From assembly GCA_949288785.1 (NCBI GenBank), contig CASELQ010000001.1, positions 62,001 through 126,000 of the forward strand: a stretch of 64,000 nt of DNA. Direction: 5' to 3'. Made by a program: the position numbers and the translations under genes. The notes beneath the pieces were generated by a model that did no database searches, was not told the origin of the DNA, and worked only from the letters and a program-made list of their open reading frames with translations. Numbering within the stretch: the first letter of the stretch is position 1; each line of letters begins with the position of its first letter. The DNA is from an uncultured Eubacteriales bacterium (GTDB lineage Bacteria > Bacillota > Clostridia > Christensenellales > Borkfalkiaceae). This document shows, piece after piece, positions 17,113 to 64,000 of this stretch.

Positions 17113-18121
17113 GATTATTCCTCCCCTTTGCGGATATAAGATTATTATCGCCTGAGGCGGCGGTTTTTATACGGGCAGAGCAAAGAGAATATAAAAGCAT
17201 ACCAACGTATACCGCACCGAGCACGCCGATGACGGGGTAAAGATACTTCACGATATTGCCAAGTCCTATAAAAGAACAAAGGTACGCCGCGCACGCCGCG
17301 GCAGCCACCCCCTTTTTACCCCATAAATTTCCCGCATGATCCGCCACGTTGCAAAAACAGGTGTAAAAGGAAGTAAGCATACCGAGCCCCAGCGCCGCGC
17401 CGAAGGCTATGCCCGCGCCGCCCTTTACGGCAGAAAGCAGCGGAAGCGCCGCATCGGCGGAAAATGCGCCCCGCACCGCCATCAGGATAAGCGCCGCCTG
17501 CGCCGCCGTAAGCAGAGAAAACAGAGCCGCGCCCGCATATAACGATTTTTTTCCGAGACCGCGCGCGCCGGCACTAACCGCGGGAACCGATACGAATACG
17601 TTCATAAACGCAAACACGCAGGCTCCAGCAATACCCGTCAAAGGGTTTGCGGGCGCACCGCCGTAAGAAAGAGTTCTGCCCGAAAAAACGGCGACGTTAA
17701 TAAGAATAAGCGCCGCCGGCATAAGTACGGCGCTCAGAACCCCGGCGCCCGCCTTGCCTTTCCCCGAATATAAAAAACAAAAGACGCACGCACCCGCCGA
17801 TAGCAAGGGCGTGCCGCCCAAAATTCCCGCCTGCACCGTGAGTTCGTTCAGCCCCGCCAGCATACTCGCCGCAAACACGAAGTCTGCAAAGAGAAACGCC
17901 GCCTGAAAGAATCTGCCGACCGCCTTACCCGCCGGCATTCCTCCGCCCGCAAACACCGCGGCAAATCCCGAAAACAGCACGCCGCCCGCAATAAGCAAAA
18001 AGGGCAGAAAGCCCTCCGTTCCGAAAAAGAACACAAGTTCCCTGCCCGATAAAAACCCCGCGCCCATGACCGCGCCCGACAAGAGAAGCGCCGCTTTAAG
18101 TGTGTTTAACCAGTATTTCAC
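17057..18121 (-). CDS. YkvI-like membrane transporter (LeuT-fold type)
   Basis: The 354-residue protein is almost entirely hydrophobic, with about ten membrane segments. The N-terminal segment GAVMGAGFLSGRELVFFFG matches the unwound first helix of YkvI-type proteins of the amino acid/polyamine/cation (APC) transporter superfamily. The substrate is unknown. The last 30 residues are strongly charged (basic) and overlap the coding region of the 41-residue protein, so this tail may be set by that overlap. It follows the HEAT-like gene by 37 bp. Confidence 0.75.
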   Translation of the reverse strand: MKYWLNTLKAALLLSGAVMGAGFLSGRELVFFFGTEGFLPFLLIAGGVLFSGFAAVFAGGGMPAGKAVGRFFQAAFLFADFVFAASMLAGLNELTVQAGILGGTPLLSAGACVFCFLYSGKGKAGAGVLSAVLMPAALILINVAVFSGRTLSYGGAPANPLTGIAGACVFAFMNVFVSVPAVSAGARGLGKKSLYAGAALFSLLTAAQAALILMAVRGAFSADAALPLLSAVKGGAGIAFGAALGLGMLTSFYTCFCNVADHAGNLWGKKGVAAAACAAYLCSFIGLGNIVKYLYPVIGVLGAVYVGMLLYSLCSARIKTAASGDNNLISAKGRNNHVKKEQKKQSEKTERQRL

Positions 18122-18158
18122 ACTATATTTTACGTGCGGAGCAACAAAAATATTCCCG

Positions 18159-19004
18159 TTACCGATTCTGCCGCCTTCTCCTGCTTGCTCCCTTTATCTT
18201 TTTATACGTTCTGTCTGCGGAAAAATCTCTCTCCTTATCGTAACTTCCGCCCAGCGCCTCTATCGCAAAGCGCAGTTCCTCAAAGTCGGCATACGTAAGC
18301 CCCTCTCTTTCTATCGCCTCATAAAGGAGCGGCAGCGCGCGCTCGTCGCCGAACCGGGCAAGGTAGCCGGCATACAGCGGAACGTTTTCCGGGTGGGCGG
18401 AAAACTCCGCCGTAAGCACGGAAAACGCCCTTTTATCCCCCTTTGCGTGCGAAAGGATCTCGGCAAGTCTTGCCTTGCCCGCTTCCGCCGCCCCCTCATA
18501 GGCGGCAACGGCTGCGTCTCTCACCGCAGCGCTGTGCTCCGCCGCCGAGGCAAGCGCCTCCGTGGCAAGCTCTCCTATGTTCTCGGGATAATCTTCAAGA
18601 GCAAACTCCATATATCTTGCCACGGGGATCTCCGCCCCCATATCCGACAGCATATTCATAAGATATGCGGTAAATTCCTCGTTCTCCTCGCCGTACAGCG
18701 CCGCAGAAAGCGCAGGTGCGTTTTGACCGTCGCCCGTTATCGCTTCGCACAAAAAGTCCGAAACGGGCACGCCCGTTTCAATATGTTCTTTAAGGCATGC
18801 AAGAAGTTCCTCGGCAGTGTGCCCGAGGTAATATTCGCGCGGACTTTTTCCGCCCAGTTCCGCCGTTTTCTCGCCGCCGAACCTATTGAACATAACGGGC
18901 ATGCTGTCCTCTATTTCCTCCGGCTTTATTTTACCGATGTTCTCATAGACGTATTTTTCTATGTATTTATCGAAAAGTTTATCTATATCTACCGCTTTAA
19001 TCAT
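18159..19004 (-). CDS. HEAT-like helical repeat protein, unknown function
   Basis: With the ATG at 19004 the product has 281 residues and appears wholly alpha-helical. Segments such as ATEALASAAEHSAAVRDAAV and YLARFGDERALPLLYEAIE look like HEAT-type repeats that commonly mediate protein contacts. The C-terminus ends in a cluster of arginines. The start overlaps the TPR gene stop (ATGATTAA), so the two are translationally coupled and probably act together. A longer open frame to 19055 would overlap the TPR gene further. Confidence 0.65.
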   Translation of the reverse strand: MIKAVDIDKLFDKYIEKYVYENIGKIKPEEIEDSMPVMFNRFGGEKTAELGGKSPREYYLGHTAEELLACLKEHIETGVPVSDFLCEAITGDGQNAPALSAALYGEENEEFTAYLMNMLSDMGAEIPVARYMEFALEDYPENIGELATEALASAAEHSAAVRDAAVAAYEGAAEAGKARLAEILSHAKGDKRAFSVLTAEFSAHPENVPLYAGYLARFGDERALPLLYEAIEREGLTYADFEELRFAIEALGGSYDKERDFSADRTYKKIKGASRRRRQNR

Positions 19005-20739
19005 CTTTACCGCCTTTTTCGGAAACATTCTCCGCAGGAGCCTCTCCCTCTGCAAAAATGCCCGCCTTGCGCATGAATTCGTTCACTCTATCGTTATCCG
19101 CGCCGAATATGAGCATTGCCTCGGTTATGCGGGGTTCGTCCCCCTGCCGGGCGACAGCCGCCGCCACCGCCGCCAGCTCCCTTACGCCCATATCCATTTC
19201 CTCGGCAAGCCCCGCGTGATCTTTATATATGGAATTGAGCGCCGAACACAGCCTGCCGTCGTCCTTCATCCCCGTAACCGCCATGCCTGTAAGACATTCG
19301 GCATATGCCGCAAGGAATTTCACGCCGTCCGCCGCGTTGTCAAACGCCGTTTTGCGCGGCTTTATGAATATGCAGTCCATACCTACTACAACGCCGAACC
19401 TCTTTTTGTATCCCGAACACACGAGCATCTGTACAAGACTGCTCTTTACGCCCAGCGGCACGGAAGGATTTAAGAGCATCCTGAACGCCTTTTTGAAATC
19501 TTCCTCCCCGAACTTGGGCGGCACCTTGCCCGTGGGGCGGAACATAAAACTCCCCTTTATTATGAGCGGATCGTCGCAGGATTCGCCGTATAATGAAACT
19601 TCTTTCAGGTACCGTTCCCTTACCGGCGAGATCTTACCGTCTTTAAGATAGTCGTTTATGGCGCGCTTATATACCGATATATCCATCGGTTGGAGATCCA
19701 TACTGTATGCCAGCGGCAACAGTCTTTTTGCATGCTTATCTCCCGCGCCCATACGTTCGGCAAGGTCCCTGTAATATTTTACAACGGTGTTGAACGGGTC
19801 TATTTTAAGAGTCTCTATGCACTGCTCCTTTGCCTCTTCGTATCTGCCGAGATTTATCAGAGCCTGCGCACGCGTCAGCCGCGGCATTATATCGAAACTG
19901 CCGTCCGCTATGAGCATGGACGTAAACTTTTCCGTCATTTCGTTATCGCCGTTCTCCATGGCGGCAGTGGCAAGCTTATGCGCGTATTTTTCGGGATCCT
20001 TGCAGCATTCCAATGCCTTGCGGTAATAATATTCGCTCTTGTCGTAAATTTTGCGTATCGAATACAATGCCGAAAGATTACAGTAAGCCGTTACGTTCTC
20101 TCCGTGCCGGGCAAGCGAAGAACGGCATTCTTTCGCGGACTTTTCGTCCTGCTTGCTCAAAAAATACATAAACGCAAGTTCCCCGCTTATCTCCTCCGTG
20201 CGCATCTGCTCCGGAATACGCGCGTAATATTCGGCGGCTTTTTTAAAATTGTCCTCTCCCGCCGCCTTTTCCGCAAGCATTATGAGCTGTTCGGTGTTTT
20301 CCGAACGCGCAGGATAGGCAAGCTTTATATCGGGAAAGTTGTCCGCCAGGCGCGAAAAATATTCCGTTATCTCGGGATCCAGCGATTCTGCGGAAATAAA
20401 CCCGTCCGCTTCCACCTTTTTGTGGAAAAAGTAGCCGGAAGCCCAATATTTTTTCATATAAAAAAAGTTTACGGCAAGTTCTATGTATGCCGTGCCCGCC
20501 TTTGCCGCCGGCGCCCTGTCAAGATAAAGGTACCAATATCTGTTGGAAAGTTCCGGCAGATTCATATCCGCATAAGTGTCGGCTATATCCATTATCACGT
20601 CCAGCGAACCGGGAGCCGCGCTCCTTGCCTCGAAAAGATACGAAAGCGCGCCGATAAAATCTCCCGCCTCGTTTTTCTCTTCCGCAAGTTTGCGGTATAT
20701 ATCCGCGTCCTTTCTGAATTGCAGTATTTTATTCTCCAT
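18997..20739 (-). CDS. TPR-repeat protein, unknown function
   Basis: The 580-residue product has recurrent tetratricopeptide-type helix pairs in the N-terminal two thirds, for example GDFIGALSYLFEARSAAPGS, KAAEYYARIPEQ, YDKSEYYYRKALECC and LGRYEEAKEQCIETLKIDP. The C-terminal third is helical and less regular. No signal peptide is visible, so it is probably a cytoplasmic scaffold. I chose the ATG at 20739 over a TTG at 20748. It overlaps hslO by 11 bp and the HEAT-like gene by 8 bp. I do not recognise a named family. Confidence 0.75.
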   Translation of the reverse strand: MENKILQFRKDADIYRKLAEEKNEAGDFIGALSYLFEARSAAPGSLDVIMDIADTYADMNLPELSNRYWYLYLDRAPAAKAGTAYIELAVNFFYMKKYWASGYFFHKKVEADGFISAESLDPEITEYFSRLADNFPDIKLAYPARSENTEQLIMLAEKAAGEDNFKKAAEYYARIPEQMRTEEISGELAFMYFLSKQDEKSAKECRSSLARHGENVTAYCNLSALYSIRKIYDKSEYYYRKALECCKDPEKYAHKLATAAMENGDNEMTEKFTSMLIADGSFDIMPRLTRAQALINLGRYEEAKEQCIETLKIDPFNTVVKYYRDLAERMGAGDKHAKRLLPLAYSMDLQPMDISVYKRAINDYLKDGKISPVRERYLKEVSLYGESCDDPLIIKGSFMFRPTGKVPPKFGEEDFKKAFRMLLNPSVPLGVKSSLVQMLVCSGYKKRFGVVVGMDCIFIKPRKTAFDNAADGVKFLAAYAECLTGMAVTGMKDDGRLCSALNSIYKDHAGLAEEMDMGVRELAAVAAAVARQGDEPRITEAMLIFGADNDRVNEFMRKAGIFAEGEAPAENVSEKGGKDD

Positions 20740-24576: not shown

Positions 24577-25596
24577 ATGAAAAAGTACGACATTGCCGTT
24601 GTCGGCGCCACGGGTATGGTGGGCAGAAAGTTCCTCGAAGTGCTGACGGAAAGGCAACTTCCCGCTAACAACTATTATCTTTTCGCTTCTTCGAGATCCG
24701 CGGGTTCCGTTATAGATTTTATGGGAAAACCGCATACGGTCATAGAACTCAACGAAGAAAACATAAAGGCGCACAAGGTGGATATTGCGCTCTTTTCCGC
24801 CGGCGGGGACGTAAGCAAACAGTTTGCCCCCGTATTTGCAAAGTGCGGCGCGCTTGTAATTGACAATTCCAACGCGTGGAGAAGAGATCCTCAGGTGCCG
24901 CTGGTCGTCCCGGAATGCAATCCCCGGGATATTATGTGGCATAAAAACATCATAGCAAACCCCAACTGCTCCACCATTCAGGCGGTGGTGGCGTTGCAGC
25001 CCCTGCACAAGGCGTTCGGAATAAAGCGCATTATCTATTCCACTTATCAGGCGGTTTCCGGCGCGGGCGTAAAGGGCTTTAACGACCTGAAAGGCGGTAT
25101 ATGCGGAGAGGCGCCCCAGAAATTTCCCTACCCCATTTTCGGCAACTGCCTTCCCCATATAGACGTGTTCCTTGAAAACGGATACACCCGCGAAGAGGAT
25201 AAAATGATTTTCGAAACAAAAAAGATTCTGGGGGATCAGGACATAAAGATAACCGCCACCTGCGTGCGCGTTCCCGTTTATTACGGGCACAGCGAATCTG
25301 TGAACGTGGAATTTTATAAGCCCTGCACCGTGGAGCAGGTAAAGGAAGTGCTTCAAAACGCGCCCGGCATAGTGGTACAGGACGACGCCAAAAACCTCGT
25401 TTACCCCATGCCCGTTACCGCGGAGAATAAGGACGAGGTGTTTGTGGGCAGAATAAGAAAGGACGATACGGTAGAATCCGGCGTGAATCTCTGGATAGTG
25501 GCGGACAACATAAGAAAGGGCGCCGCCACGAACGCCGTGCAGATAGCCGAAAAAGCCATTGAACTGGGCGCCGTTAAAGATCAGCTGAACGTTTAA
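24577..25596 (+). CDS. asd: Aspartate-semialdehyde dehydrogenase
   Basis: Asd reduces aspartyl phosphate to aspartate semialdehyde, the branch point to lysine/diaminopimelate and to homoserine. The 339-residue protein has the NADP-binding GATGMVGRKFL near the N-terminus and the catalytic cysteine C131 in NPNCST, with QAVSGAGVKG following. It is the first gene of an operon with dapA and dapB, so it mainly feeds cell-wall diaminopimelate here. The partner branch enzyme hom, at 51-52 kb, is frame-disrupted. Confidence 0.96.
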   Translation: MKKYDIAVVGATGMVGRKFLEVLTERQLPANNYYLFASSRSAGSVIDFMGKPHTVIELNEENIKAHKVDIALFSAGGDVSKQFAPVFAKCGALVIDNSNAWRRDPQVPLVVPECNPRDIMWHKNIIANPNCSTIQAVVALQPLHKAFGIKRIIYSTYQAVSGAGVKGFNDLKGGICGEAPQKFPYPIFGNCLPHIDVFLENGYTREEDKMIFETKKILGDQDIKITATCVRVPVYYGHSESVNVEFYKPCTVEQVKEVLQNAPGIVVQDDAKNLVYPMPVTAENKDEVFVGRIRKDDTVESGVNLWIVADNIRKGAATNAVQIAEKAIELGAVKDQLNV

Positions 25597-25610
25597 GATC
25601 CTTTGGGCTT

Positions 25611-25637
25611 TTGTGCCGCGGCAACGCTGCGGCACAA
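25611..25637 (+). promoter_or_regulatory. Hairpin between asd and dapA
   Basis: A 9-bp perfect stem (25611-25619 with 25629-25637) with a 9-base loop follows the asd stop by 14 bp. It has no T-run, so it is more likely a stabilising or processing hairpin than a terminator. Confidence 0.5.
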
Positions 25638-25667
25638 ACCCGAAAACACGATAAAAGGGAGGTTTCT

Positions 25668-26558
25668 ATGAACAAAACGATATTCAAGGGCACATGCACC
25701 GCCGCCATTACCCCTTTCACGCGGGACGGCATAGATTATCCGGCTTTCAAAAAACAGATAGACTATCAGATAGCGGGCGGGATAGACGCGCTTTGCGTTC
25801 TCGGCACCACGGGTGAGGCGCCCACCATTACCGACGAGGAATACGACGGTATTGCAAAGTTTGCAAGAGATACCATTGCCGGCAGAGTGAAATTTATCCT
25901 GGGCAGCGGCAGCAACTGTACTAAGAAAGCGATAGAAAAAAGCGTTCTTGCCCAAAAAATAGGCGCGGACGGGTTGCTTGTGGTTACCCCCTATTACAAT
26001 AAATGCACGCAGAAAGGGCTTGTAAAATACTATAACGACATATGCGACAACGTGGATATTCCCGTTTTATGCTACAACGTGCCGGCAAGGACGGGGGTCA
26101 ATATTCTCCCCCAGACCATGGCCGAAATCGCCGAACATAAAAATATAGGCGGGATAAAAGAGGCCTGCGGCAATATGGAACAGATTTGCGAGACTGCCCG
26201 CCTCATCCGCGGAAAGACCGCACTCTATTCGGGGGACGACAATCTTAACCTTGCCATGCTTTCGATAGGCTCCATGGGGCTTATTTCGGTGGTTTCGAAC
26301 ATCGCGCCAAAAGAGGTTGGCGAAGTGGCGCGCCTTTATTTTGCGGGCAAAAACCGCGAGGCTACCGAATTGCAGGAAAAACTCCTTCCGCTCATCGACA
26401 TAATGTTCTGCGAAGTTAACCCCATCCCCGTTAAAAAGGCGGCGGAACTGTTGGGGCTTGGCAGCGGCATAGTGCGCGCCCCGCTTACCGAACTGGAAGA
26501 CGGGCACACCGCGCAGATGAAAGAGATACTTAAAGAATACGATTTTAATATAGTATAA
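25668..26558 (+). CDS. dapA: 4-hydroxy-tetrahydrodipicolinate synthase
   Basis: DapA condenses aspartate semialdehyde with pyruvate at the first committed step of lysine/DAP synthesis. From the ATG at 25668 (AAGGGAGG upstream) it has 296 residues. The Schiff-base lysine is K164 in GGIKEACG. Also visible are LGTTGEAPT near 45-53, PYY at 108-110 and YNVPARTG from Y136. A frame opening at 25611 adds residues lacking family similarity. Confidence 0.97.
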   Translation: MNKTIFKGTCTAAITPFTRDGIDYPAFKKQIDYQIAGGIDALCVLGTTGEAPTITDEEYDGIAKFARDTIAGRVKFILGSGSNCTKKAIEKSVLAQKIGADGLLVVTPYYNKCTQKGLVKYYNDICDNVDIPVLCYNVPARTGVNILPQTMAEIAEHKNIGGIKEACGNMEQICETARLIRGKTALYSGDDNLNLAMLSIGSMGLISVVSNIAPKEVGEVARLYFAGKNREATELQEKLLPLIDIMFCEVNPIPVKKAAELLGLGSGIVRAPLTELEDGHTAQMKEILKEYDFNIV

Positions 26559-26680
26559 GCCGCAGGGCGTGCGATAAACCTGCAACGCGCAAAGACGTTT
26601 CCCGGCGGAAAAATTATGCTTTGCCGAAGCCGCAGTTTGTATTTATAACGGTATTCAGGCTAATTATTACGGAGAAAGAT

Positions 26681-27442
26681 ATGATTAAAGTTTTGATTTA
26701 CGGCGCAAACGGAAAAATGGGCAGAAAAGTGAAAGAGGCGCTCTCCCGCTCTCAAAAGGCACGGGCGGTTTGCGGAGTCGATATAACGGAGGACTTTTCG
26801 GACGGGAATTTTCCCGTATATAAGGATATAAATCAGGTAAAAGAACAGCCGGATATAATTATAGACTTTTCCTCCCCCGCCTCGCTTTACGGCATACTCG
26901 GTTACTGCGCCAATCACAAAACCGGAGCGGTGCTGTGCTCTACCGGGTATGACGACGCGCAGATCGAAAAGATAAACAAGGCTGCCGAAAATACCGCGTT
27001 GTTCCGCTCCGCCAACATGTCGTTAGGAGTGAACGTGCTCATAAAACTGGTAAAACAGGCGGCGGCGGCGCTAAAAGGGTTTGACGCGGAGATTATAGAG
27101 ATGCACCACAATCAGAAAAAGGACGCGCCAAGCGGCACCGCCATTATGCTTGCGGACGGAATAAAGGAAGTCCTGCCCGAAAAATACTGCACTTACGGCA
27201 GGCACGGCATTGTAGGAAAAAGGGACGTAAACGAGATAGGCATACACGCCGTGCGCGGCGGCAACGTGGTGGGCGATCATCAGGTGATTTTCGCCGCGGA
27301 AAACGAGAGGATTACTCTCTCCCACTCCGCACAGGACAGGGGCGTTTTTGCCGAGGGCGCCGTTAAGGCCGCGGAGTTTTTGTACGGAAAGAAGAACGGG
27401 CTTTACGATATGAACGATCTTTTGGATGAAGAAAATGCTTGA
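26681..27442 (+). CDS. dapB: 4-hydroxy-tetrahydrodipicolinate reductase
   Basis: DapB reduces the DapA product with NAD(P)H. The 253-residue protein starts at the ATG at 26681, downstream of ACGGAGAAAG. It has the nucleotide-binding GANGKMG at 8-14 and the catalytic EMHHNQKKDAPSGTA segment. The GRHGIVGKRDVNEIGIHAVRGG region is also characteristic. It overlaps yggS at the 3' end. Confidence 0.96.
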   Translation: MIKVLIYGANGKMGRKVKEALSRSQKARAVCGVDITEDFSDGNFPVYKDINQVKEQPDIIIDFSSPASLYGILGYCANHKTGAVLCSTGYDDAQIEKINKAAENTALFRSANMSLGVNVLIKLVKQAAAALKGFDAEIIEMHHNQKKDAPSGTAIMLADGIKEVLPEKYCTYGRHGIVGKRDVNEIGIHAVRGGNVVGDHQVIFAAENERITLSHSAQDRGVFAEGAVKAAEFLYGKKNGLYDMNDLLDEENA

Positions 27443-50592: not shown

Positions 50593-50644
50593 ATTTTATC
50601 GCAAAAATAAAATCGGGTTTTAGTTTCCCCGAAAACATAATTTT

Positions 50645-50674
50645 ACCGCCCTTTCGCGTTTGCGAAAGGGCGGT
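50645..50674. terminator. Bidirectional terminator between the dnaD-like gene and hom
   Basis: A 13-bp perfect stem with a GTTT loop has T-rich sequence on both sides. It lies between converging genes and can serve both. Confidence 0.88.
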
Positions 50675-50746
50675 ATTTTACAACATTTTGAATTGCTTAT
50701 ACGAGATTTACCGCACCTTAAAACCGTGTGAAAGCGCGCTTTCCGC

Positions 50747-51996
50747 TTATTCCTCTATCCTTATGCTGCCCTTTATTTCATACACTTCTTCAAGCTGGGA
50801 GAGCTTTTCCAGCGTCTTTTTAACGGCGCTTTCAAGTGAAGGATGGGTTATAATGATTATTTCCGCCTTGCCTTCTTCCGCGGATATCTGCTTTACTTCC
50901 TTTATGCTGATGGCGTGTTTTGCAAACACCCCGGTGATTTTGGAGAGCACGCCAGCCGCGTCCGCCACGGAAAGCCTTAAATAATATTTTACCGAATAAT
51001 CGCTTACGAACTTTGTTTCCTTGTTGCCGCCCATATTGTTTTTGAAGGGCGCATAATAATAGTCGTTATGCTTGCTGGCAAAAATTATATCCGAAACGAT
51101 GGCGCTGCCGGTGGGCAACGCGCCCGCGCCCCTGCCGTAAAGCATTATTTCGCCCACCGAATCGCCAACTAAGTGCACGGCGTTGAAAGAATCGTTTACC
51201 GAAGCCAGCGGATCGTCGTTCCTTATGAAGGTGGGGTGCACCCTCACGTCCACGCCCTGGGGAGTGTTTTTGCCTATGCCCAGGAGTTTAAGGGTGTAGC
51301 CCATGGCTTTGCCGTAGGCTATATCTTCCTTGTCTATGCCGGTTATACCCTCTCGGTAAATGTTCTCGAAAGATATCTTGGTATTGAATGCAAGGCTGGT
51401 GAGAATGGACAGTTTATACGTTGCGTCAAACCCCTCCACGAACGCTGCGCGTCTTTAAGCGCGTCCTCATAAGACCAGCCCTCTTCCGTCATCTTGGTGA
51501 GTATATAGTTGGTGGTGCCGTTTATTATGCCCTTTATGGAGAGTATGCGGTTTGCCTGCATCCCGTCCTGCAAGGTCCTTATTATCGGCACGCCGCCCAC
51601 GCAGCTCGCCTCGAAAAAAAGGCCGACGTTCATCTTTTTTGCCATTTCTTCTAATTCCGGCCAGTATTTGGCAAAAAGCTCCTTGTTGGAGGTTACCACC
51701 GTCTTGCCGCTCATGAGCGACTTTAATACAAAGGTTCTCGAAGGCTCTATACCGCCTATCACTTCCACCACGATGTCTACGCCGGGATTGGATATCACGT
51801 CCTCTATGGAAGCGCAAACGTTTTCCTCCGGCACTCCGAGAGATTTGGCGCGCTCCTTGTTCTTTTCCATAACGCATTCCACCGTTATGTCCAGCCCCTG
51901 CGTCTTTTTGAAAAATTCCTTTTTTTCGGAGAGTATGCTGTATACTCCCCCGCCGACCACGCCTAAACCCAGTATGGCTACGCCTACTTTTTTCAT
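50747..51996 (-). pseudogene. hom: Homoserine dehydrogenase, frame-disrupted
   Basis: Homoserine dehydrogenase starts the threonine/methionine branch from aspartate semialdehyde. The N-terminal part (51996 to about 51445) has the NAD-binding GLGVVGGGVYSILSEK, the TSNKELFAKYW segment and GIINGTTNYILTKM. The C-terminal part (51439 to 50747) resumes in another frame with EGFDATYKLSILTSLAFN and ends in an ACT domain. Between them the expected LGYAEADP-type catalytic block is missing. I estimate a loss of about 31 bp around 51440-51447, which breaks the frame. The remaining parts are otherwise intact. Either the gene is newly inactivated or the assembly is wrong. It follows coaX by 13 bp. Confidence 0.9.
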
Positions 51997-52009: not shown

Positions 52010-52786
52010 TCAGATGTTTTCGTTAAGTTCGTGTATTATTTTAAGCCCGTCAAGCGTGAGCGTTCTGTCCACCACCACGAGGGACTTTACTTCCTTGGCG
52101 ATTATTTCGCCCAGCCCGCCGGTCGCCACTACCTTTATTTCTTCAAGTTTAAGTTCTTTTTTTATGCGCTTTATTATATTGTCCACAAGCCCCGCAAACC
52201 CGAATATTATACCCGACTGCATGCTTGCCTTGGTGTTTCTGCCTATTACGCTCTTGGGCGATTCCAGTTCCACCGTGGGAAGCTGCGCCGTGTTACTGGT
52301 AAGCGCTTCCAGCGAGGTCTTTATGCCGGGGGCAATCACAACGCCCAAAAGTTCGCACTTTTCGGAGATCACGTCGAACGTGGTGGCTGTGCCGAAATCT
52401 ATCACTATTACGGGCCCGCCGTATTTATTGAAGGCGGACACGCTGTTCACGATTATATCCGCGCCCACTTCACGCGAGTTTTCCGCGCGGATATTCAGCC
52501 CCGTCTTTATCCCCGGCCCCACCATGGTGGGAATTATGCCGAAAAAATATTCGCACATGTGGCAGATGGTATAATTCAAAGACGGTATAACGGAGGACAT
52601 GATGACTCCCGTTATATCGGAGGTTTTAAGCCCCTTGCTCGCAAGCAGGTTTATGAGGACCGACCCGTATTCGTCCGCCGTGCGCGACAAACGCGAGGAC
52701 ACGCGGAAAGACGCAGCCAAAACCCCGTCTTTACCGTATATTCCGTATTTTATATTGGTGTTGCCTATATCTATAGCAAGTAACAT
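52010..52786 (-). CDS. coaX: Type III pantothenate kinase
   Basis: CoaX phosphorylates pantothenate in the first step of coenzyme A synthesis. The 258-residue protein begins with AIDIGNTNIKYGIYG, the phosphate-binding motif of the acetate-kinase-like fold, and has REVGADIIVNSVSA and VIDFGTATTFDVIS. GVVIAPGIKTS and VVATGGLGEIIA follow in order. It begins 2 bp after the ECF S-component, which suggests uptake and activation of pantothenate are coupled. Confidence 0.95.
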   Translation of the reverse strand: MLLAIDIGNTNIKYGIYGKDGVLAASFRVSSRLSRTADEYGSVLINLLASKGLKTSDITGVIMSSVIPSLNYTICHMCEYFFGIIPTMVGPGIKTGLNIRAENSREVGADIIVNSVSAFNKYGGPVIVIDFGTATTFDVISEKCELLGVVIAPGIKTSLEALTSNTAQLPTVELESPKSVIGRNTKASMQSGIIFGFAGLVDNIIKRIKKELKLEEIKVVATGGLGEIIAKEVKSLVVVDRTLTLDGLKIIHELNENI

Positions 52787-63510: not shown

Positions 63511-64000
63511 ATGCAGGTTAAAGGCGACTCGTCCTTAAACAAACTAATATTGCTGTTCGTTTTCGACAAAATGGAAGTGCCGCTTTCGGAAAATACGGTG
63601 CTGGATATGTGCTGCTCTTCTAATAACTGGCTTGCCTATATGGACTGCCAGCCCATTTTAAAGCAACTCCTCGACTGCGGGTGGATATATAATATCGGAG
63701 ACAGCGAAGAACCGCTTTACACCATCACCACGGACGGCAGGGTCTGCCTTGCCAACTTCTTTATAAACATCCCCGCCTCCACGCGGGAAGAGATTTCGCT
63801 TTTTATCAAAAACAACCGCACCCGTTACAGAAGAAAACAGGAATGCGTTGCCGATTATTTTATGAATAAGGACGGCACTTATACCGTTTATCTTAAGATA
63901 ATAGAACCTGCCCAGCCTGCTCTGGAATTAAAGCTCGTTGTCCCCAACCGCCAGATCGCCAAGGATATATATAAAAAATGGGGCGAAAAGGCGGGCGATA
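63511..64000 (+). CDS. DUF4364 family protein, cut by the window edge
   Basis: From the ATG at 63511 the frame stays open to the end of the window, giving the first 163 residues. The start region (NKLILLFVFDKMEVPLSENT) and the YTITTDGRVCLANFF segment match the DUF4364 family of Clostridia, winged-helix proteins of unknown role. The usual length is about 170-180 residues, so only a few are missing. The ribosome site is weak. Confidence 0.85.
   Translation, partial: MQVKGDSSLNKLILLFVFDKMEVPLSENTVLDMCCSSNNWLAYMDCQPILKQLLDCGWIYNIGDSEEPLYTITTDGRVCLANFFINIPASTREEISLFIKNNRTRYRRKQECVADYFMNKDGTYTVYLKIIEPAQPALELKLVVPNRQIAKDIYKKWGEKAGD

Follow-up and report, generated by a model that had tools for sequence, protein, structure and literature searches.

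An isolated 31-bp gap in the homoserine dehydrogenase gene of a draft metagenome-assembled genome

The hom gene and its closest described relatives

Monofunctional homoserine dehydrogenases with a C-terminal ACT domain (NCBIfam NF004976) share an active-site stretch, LGYAE..P..D, that is also carried by the solved relatives 3mtj, 6dzs, and 4pg4. Two of its residues, E190 and D196 in the numbering of the sister-species gene, we take to be the equivalents of E208 and D214 of yeast homoserine dehydrogenase. Within the genus considered here, nearly all full-length hom copies are 426 codons long and align without gaps, and a codon-by-codon comparison found 22 of 23 distinct congeneric copies to be unbroken over this length. 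The sister-species gene used for reference throughout (locus L004, from genome G041, which is the same as G032) measures 1281 nt including its stop and has coaX upstream.

The window (a 64,000-nt stretch of contig CASELQ010000001.1 from an uncultured, gut-type member of the Borkfalkiaceae, whose draft genome we designate G000) contains a recognizable member of this family that also follows coaX, and its two parts match adjoining stretches of the NF004976 model (about positions 2 to 186 and 199 to 428 of 430). Each half passes the 205-bit cut-off of the model on its own (225 bits for the N-terminal half and 236.5 bits for the C-terminal half), and both are 90% identical to the sister-species protein. 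Unlike the enzymes of NF004976, the window gene is 31 bp short, which interrupts the reading frame and removes twelve conserved codons. It occupies positions 51996 to 50747 of the minus strand (1250 nt including the stop) and is thus exactly 31 nt shorter than the sister-species gene, a deletion size that we derived from this length comparison together with DNA alignment to five relatives (Table 1).

Table 1. Features in and around the hom locus (positions within the window)
Feature	Coordinates	Strand	Basis and remarks
asd-dapA-dapB, intact	24577..27442	+	~24 kb from hom, opposite strand
Candidate intrinsic terminator 3′ of hom, 14-pair stem	50644..50675	-	Consensus match only
hom C-terminal part, codons 197-426	50747..51439	-	Remaining catalytic domain plus ACT domain; NCBIfam NF004976
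Out-of-frame tail of N-terminal ORF (RSWRGLTQRINCPF...), stop at 51343	51343..51439	-	ORF list and translation
Junction of the 31-bp deletion, as judged against hom of congeners	51440..51445	-	Alignment with five relatives plus length comparison
hom N-terminal part, codons 1-184	51445..51996	-	NAD(P)-binding domain plus start of catalytic domain; NCBIfam NF004976 over residues 1-185
coaX, type III pantothenate kinase, intact	52010..52786	-	NF009855, TIGR00671; 13 bp upstream of hom

Instead of a single open frame of about 426 codons, the window gene consists of two segments in different frames: the first runs from MKKVGVAILGLG... at 51996 to ...SYEDALKDAQ, and the second (VEGFDATYKL...GSIRIEE) is open from 51439 to its end. 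On the gene strand, the junction reads ...GCGCAG/CGTTC/GTGGAGGGG, with the five bases CGTTC standing where the sister species has codons 185 to 196 (RLGYAEFNPTAD), which read R-L-G-Y-A-E-F-N-P-T-A-D. As assembled, translation yields a product of 217 aa, of which 184 residues are native and 33 are foreign. The initial annotation, which placed a loss of about 31 bp at 51430 to 51460 and the two parts of the gene in different frames, is borne out on both counts. It had also named the missing piece as LGYAEADP, with catalytic acidic residues, and had put an asd gene coupled to the dap genes upstream of hom. The active-site stretch is indeed absent, but the genus sequence at this location is LGYAEFNP; likewise, asd-dapA-dapB is intact but lies far from hom, which is adjoined by coaX.

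Judged from its sequence, the assembled hom cannot yield an active enzyme. The stretch LGYAE..P..D is kept in all five aligned relatives, whereas the window gene has lost it together with E190 and D196; the equivalents of yeast D219 and K223 presumably stay, in the C-terminal half. The C-terminal part opens precisely with a GTG codon (51439), which raises the idea that the gene is functionally split or recoded, its two parts together giving an active enzyme through frameshifting or internal re-initiation. We regard this as scarcely credible: the twelve missing codons hold conserved active-site positions, in a stretch kept in all intact relatives, and our reading of the sequence at the junction revealed neither a slippery site nor a ribosome-binding site. 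Moreover, frameshifting cannot rescue hom because the positions of E190 and D196 are missing from the DNA itself.

Selection on hom and the background of frame breaks

Apart from the gap, the gene is well preserved. With each half compared in its own frame, differences between the window and sister-species genes number 43, 22, and 200 at codon positions 1, 2, and 3, respectively; these counts serve as our gauge of selection, as dN/dS estimates (Biopython YN00) were unusable for most comparisons owing to saturated sites. The 23 congeners share 184 invariant sites, of which three are changed in the window gene (A61C, E182D, and S210T); other hom copies have 0 to 8 such deviations, so this number is not unusual. 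Neither the relaxed selection nor the further disabling changes of a decaying pseudogene were found. The retained sequence thus appears to be under purifying selection, with no relaxation apart from the gap, which indicates that the lesion, if it is real at all, is very young.

Frame breaks of this kind occur at a low background rate in these drafts. Starting from the ORFs in roughly 340 kb of sister-genome sequence and their orthologs in G000 at ≥60% identity, we found 2 of 136 comparable genes (~1.5%) to be frame-broken: hom and a pyruvate formate-lyase-like glycyl-radical enzyme (C8:102-2503, L110). The latter is located at the start of contig C8 and shows an apparent net loss of 1 bp relative to the sister protein, near ...NITSG/AHLAVDY. 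The reverse comparison, covering 140 genes, revealed at least two broken ones in the sister draft, G032, where two adjoining genes on its contig C8 (~18100-20000, L096) are interrupted and their G000 orthologs (C1:6760-8852) are intact; one of the two, which resembles glucosamine-6-phosphate deaminase genes, has lost 2 bp. As such, hom is one among a few isolated breaks in a draft genome, and these breaks have no metabolic theme. It resembles the frame-broken genes of draft metagenome-assembled genomes in that the break is isolated, affects an otherwise conserved gene, and falls within the ~1.5% background, but it differs from two of the other breaks (indels of 1 to 2 bp) in that the loss is larger. 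A short motif, GACGCGCA, lies near both frame breaks of G000 and occurs 65 times genome-wide. Literature searches on the catalytic residues, and on frame breaks in genomes drafted from metagenomes, returned nothing useful.

In the reading that we favour, the locus is an ordinary homoserine dehydrogenase gene with an isolated gap; the gap would have arisen in assembly or consensus building, or would have been taken up by the assembler from a minority strain, and the population would keep a working hom. We consider an artefact, consensus error, or minority variant to be the likeliest origin, at slightly better than an even chance, given the draft state of the genome, the ~1.5% background of breaks and the similar share in the sister draft, the lack of decay in hom, the intact gene in 23 of 24 other genomes, and the intact thrC and homoserine kinase genes described below. 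The break is, we infer, not fixed in the living population. What weakens the artefact reading is the size of the loss, as base-calling errors in short reads rarely make a 31-bp deletion, and the junction, which offers no clear microhomology for a false overlap join. This last point is an inference from comparison with relatives, in which the simplest placement of the deletion, after CAGCGTT and before CGTGG, shows no microhomology.

The main alternative is a genuine and very recent loss at the strain level, such that no homoserine is made, threonine and methionine (or homoserine) are imported, and decay has yet to reach the downstream genes. The clean, exact gap amid well-preserved sequence is consistent with such an event, which we judge to be somewhat short of an even bet; set against it are the absence of relaxed selection on the remaining sequence and the similar background of frame breaks lacking a metabolic theme. 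An artefact and a real deletion are inseparable at this locus because a true recent deletion looks identical in the consensus. Whichever reading holds, the break in hom is an ordinary event in an ordinary gene.

hom across the genus and order

All 25 genomes surveyed from the genus have hom, and in 23 of the 24 besides G000 the gene is intact. The exception among the sequences compared is locus L008 (1927-3204), which comes from G045, apparently the same genome as G025, and is interrupted at codon 180 by an in-frame TAA, five codons before the deletion in the window. Its presence adds to the case for a recent loss, as loss of hom may recur within the genus. A stronger proposition is that homoserine synthesis has been lost repeatedly and recently in the genus, through the 31-bp deletion in G000 and the premature stop in G025/L008, neither assembly having a strong match to metA or metY. 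This would amount to convergent auxotrophy that starts at hom; we hold it to be unlikely.

At 1,725,979 bases in 54 contigs, the draft assembly is 89.67% complete, and a second hom could conceivably reside in the tenth that was not assembled, rendering the broken copy redundant. The initial annotation had recognized that another copy would change the interpretation, but none exists in the assembly: PF00742 matches just the two pieces, and tblastn over 1.70 of 1.73 Mb found no other. Moreover, PF00742 has a match in 40 of the 41 genomes examined from the genus and order, a single one in each except G000: there is exactly one in 24 of 24 other genus genomes and in 15 of 16 other genomes of the order, the sixteenth having none. 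A second, unassembled hom is thus highly improbable.

The remainder of the threonine and methionine pathway

The genes surrounding the homoserine step are, where assembled, intact. thrC lies on the same contig as hom (C1:28173-29237), and a putative homoserine kinase of the TIGR02535 type is intact at C35:10651-11853; a search of 21 genomes found kinases of this type above the cut-off in 20. The canonical ThrB (TIGR00191) has no match above the cut-off in any of 26 genus genomes, so that its absence from G000 is uninformative; the genus has the putative TIGR02535-type kinase instead. That thrC, the kinase, and asd are all intact argues against a genuine loss of homoserine synthesis. On a threonine aldolase bypass, the PF01212 matches were uninformative, being weak in each of the ten genomes (under about 40 bits).

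Whole-assembly searches of G000 recovered no match to metA and no strong match to metY. In the sister genome, these genes form part of the order gpmI-secG-rnr-smpB-metY-metA (the names secG, rnr, and smpB are provisional, given on the basis of gene size, gene order, and how each sequence starts), and contig C25 of G000 (1-1586) stops inside gpmI. All five genes beyond gpmI, namely, secG, rnr, smpB, metY, and metA, are missing by tblastn from 1.70 of 1.73 Mb. smpB is close to universal; as it is missing along with metY and metA, a stretch that failed to assemble is the simplest explanation for the block. We therefore rejected the absence of metA and metY as support for loss of the pathway, C25 ending in gpmI and secG, rnr, and smpB being missing too; the absence appears to reflect an assembly gap rather than a loss. 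Of the genes that the initial annotation had listed for checking, thrC and a kinase are in place, and metA is absent, apparently through the assembly gap. Its statement that no homoserine, threonine, or methionine could be made by way of this gene stands for hom as assembled, which is inactive; auxotrophy of the cell is only possible.

If the deletion were real, the strain would rely on its neighbours for threonine and methionine. Such dependence is common in gut bacteria rather than new, and one report (PMC9026213) describes amino-acid auxotrophs as common among them, which lends a genuine loss some plausibility. The locus also carries a caution: in a draft genome, a frame break combined with missing pathway genes can mimic auxotrophy when those genes fall into one assembly gap together with near-universal genes such as smpB.

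Contig ends near metY-metA can likewise imitate a loss of methionine synthesis. In several congeneric drafts, contigs end close to these genes, and in G011/G042, the end falls exactly at metA. G025 is also without metA and without strong matches to PF01053 (metY).

Elsewhere, at positions 63511 to 64000 of the plus strand, the window matches a sister-species ORF at 98.9% protein identity, and the match continues beyond the end of the window. This value far exceeds the 60 to 90% usual for the contig, and the region could be antisense or RNA-like.
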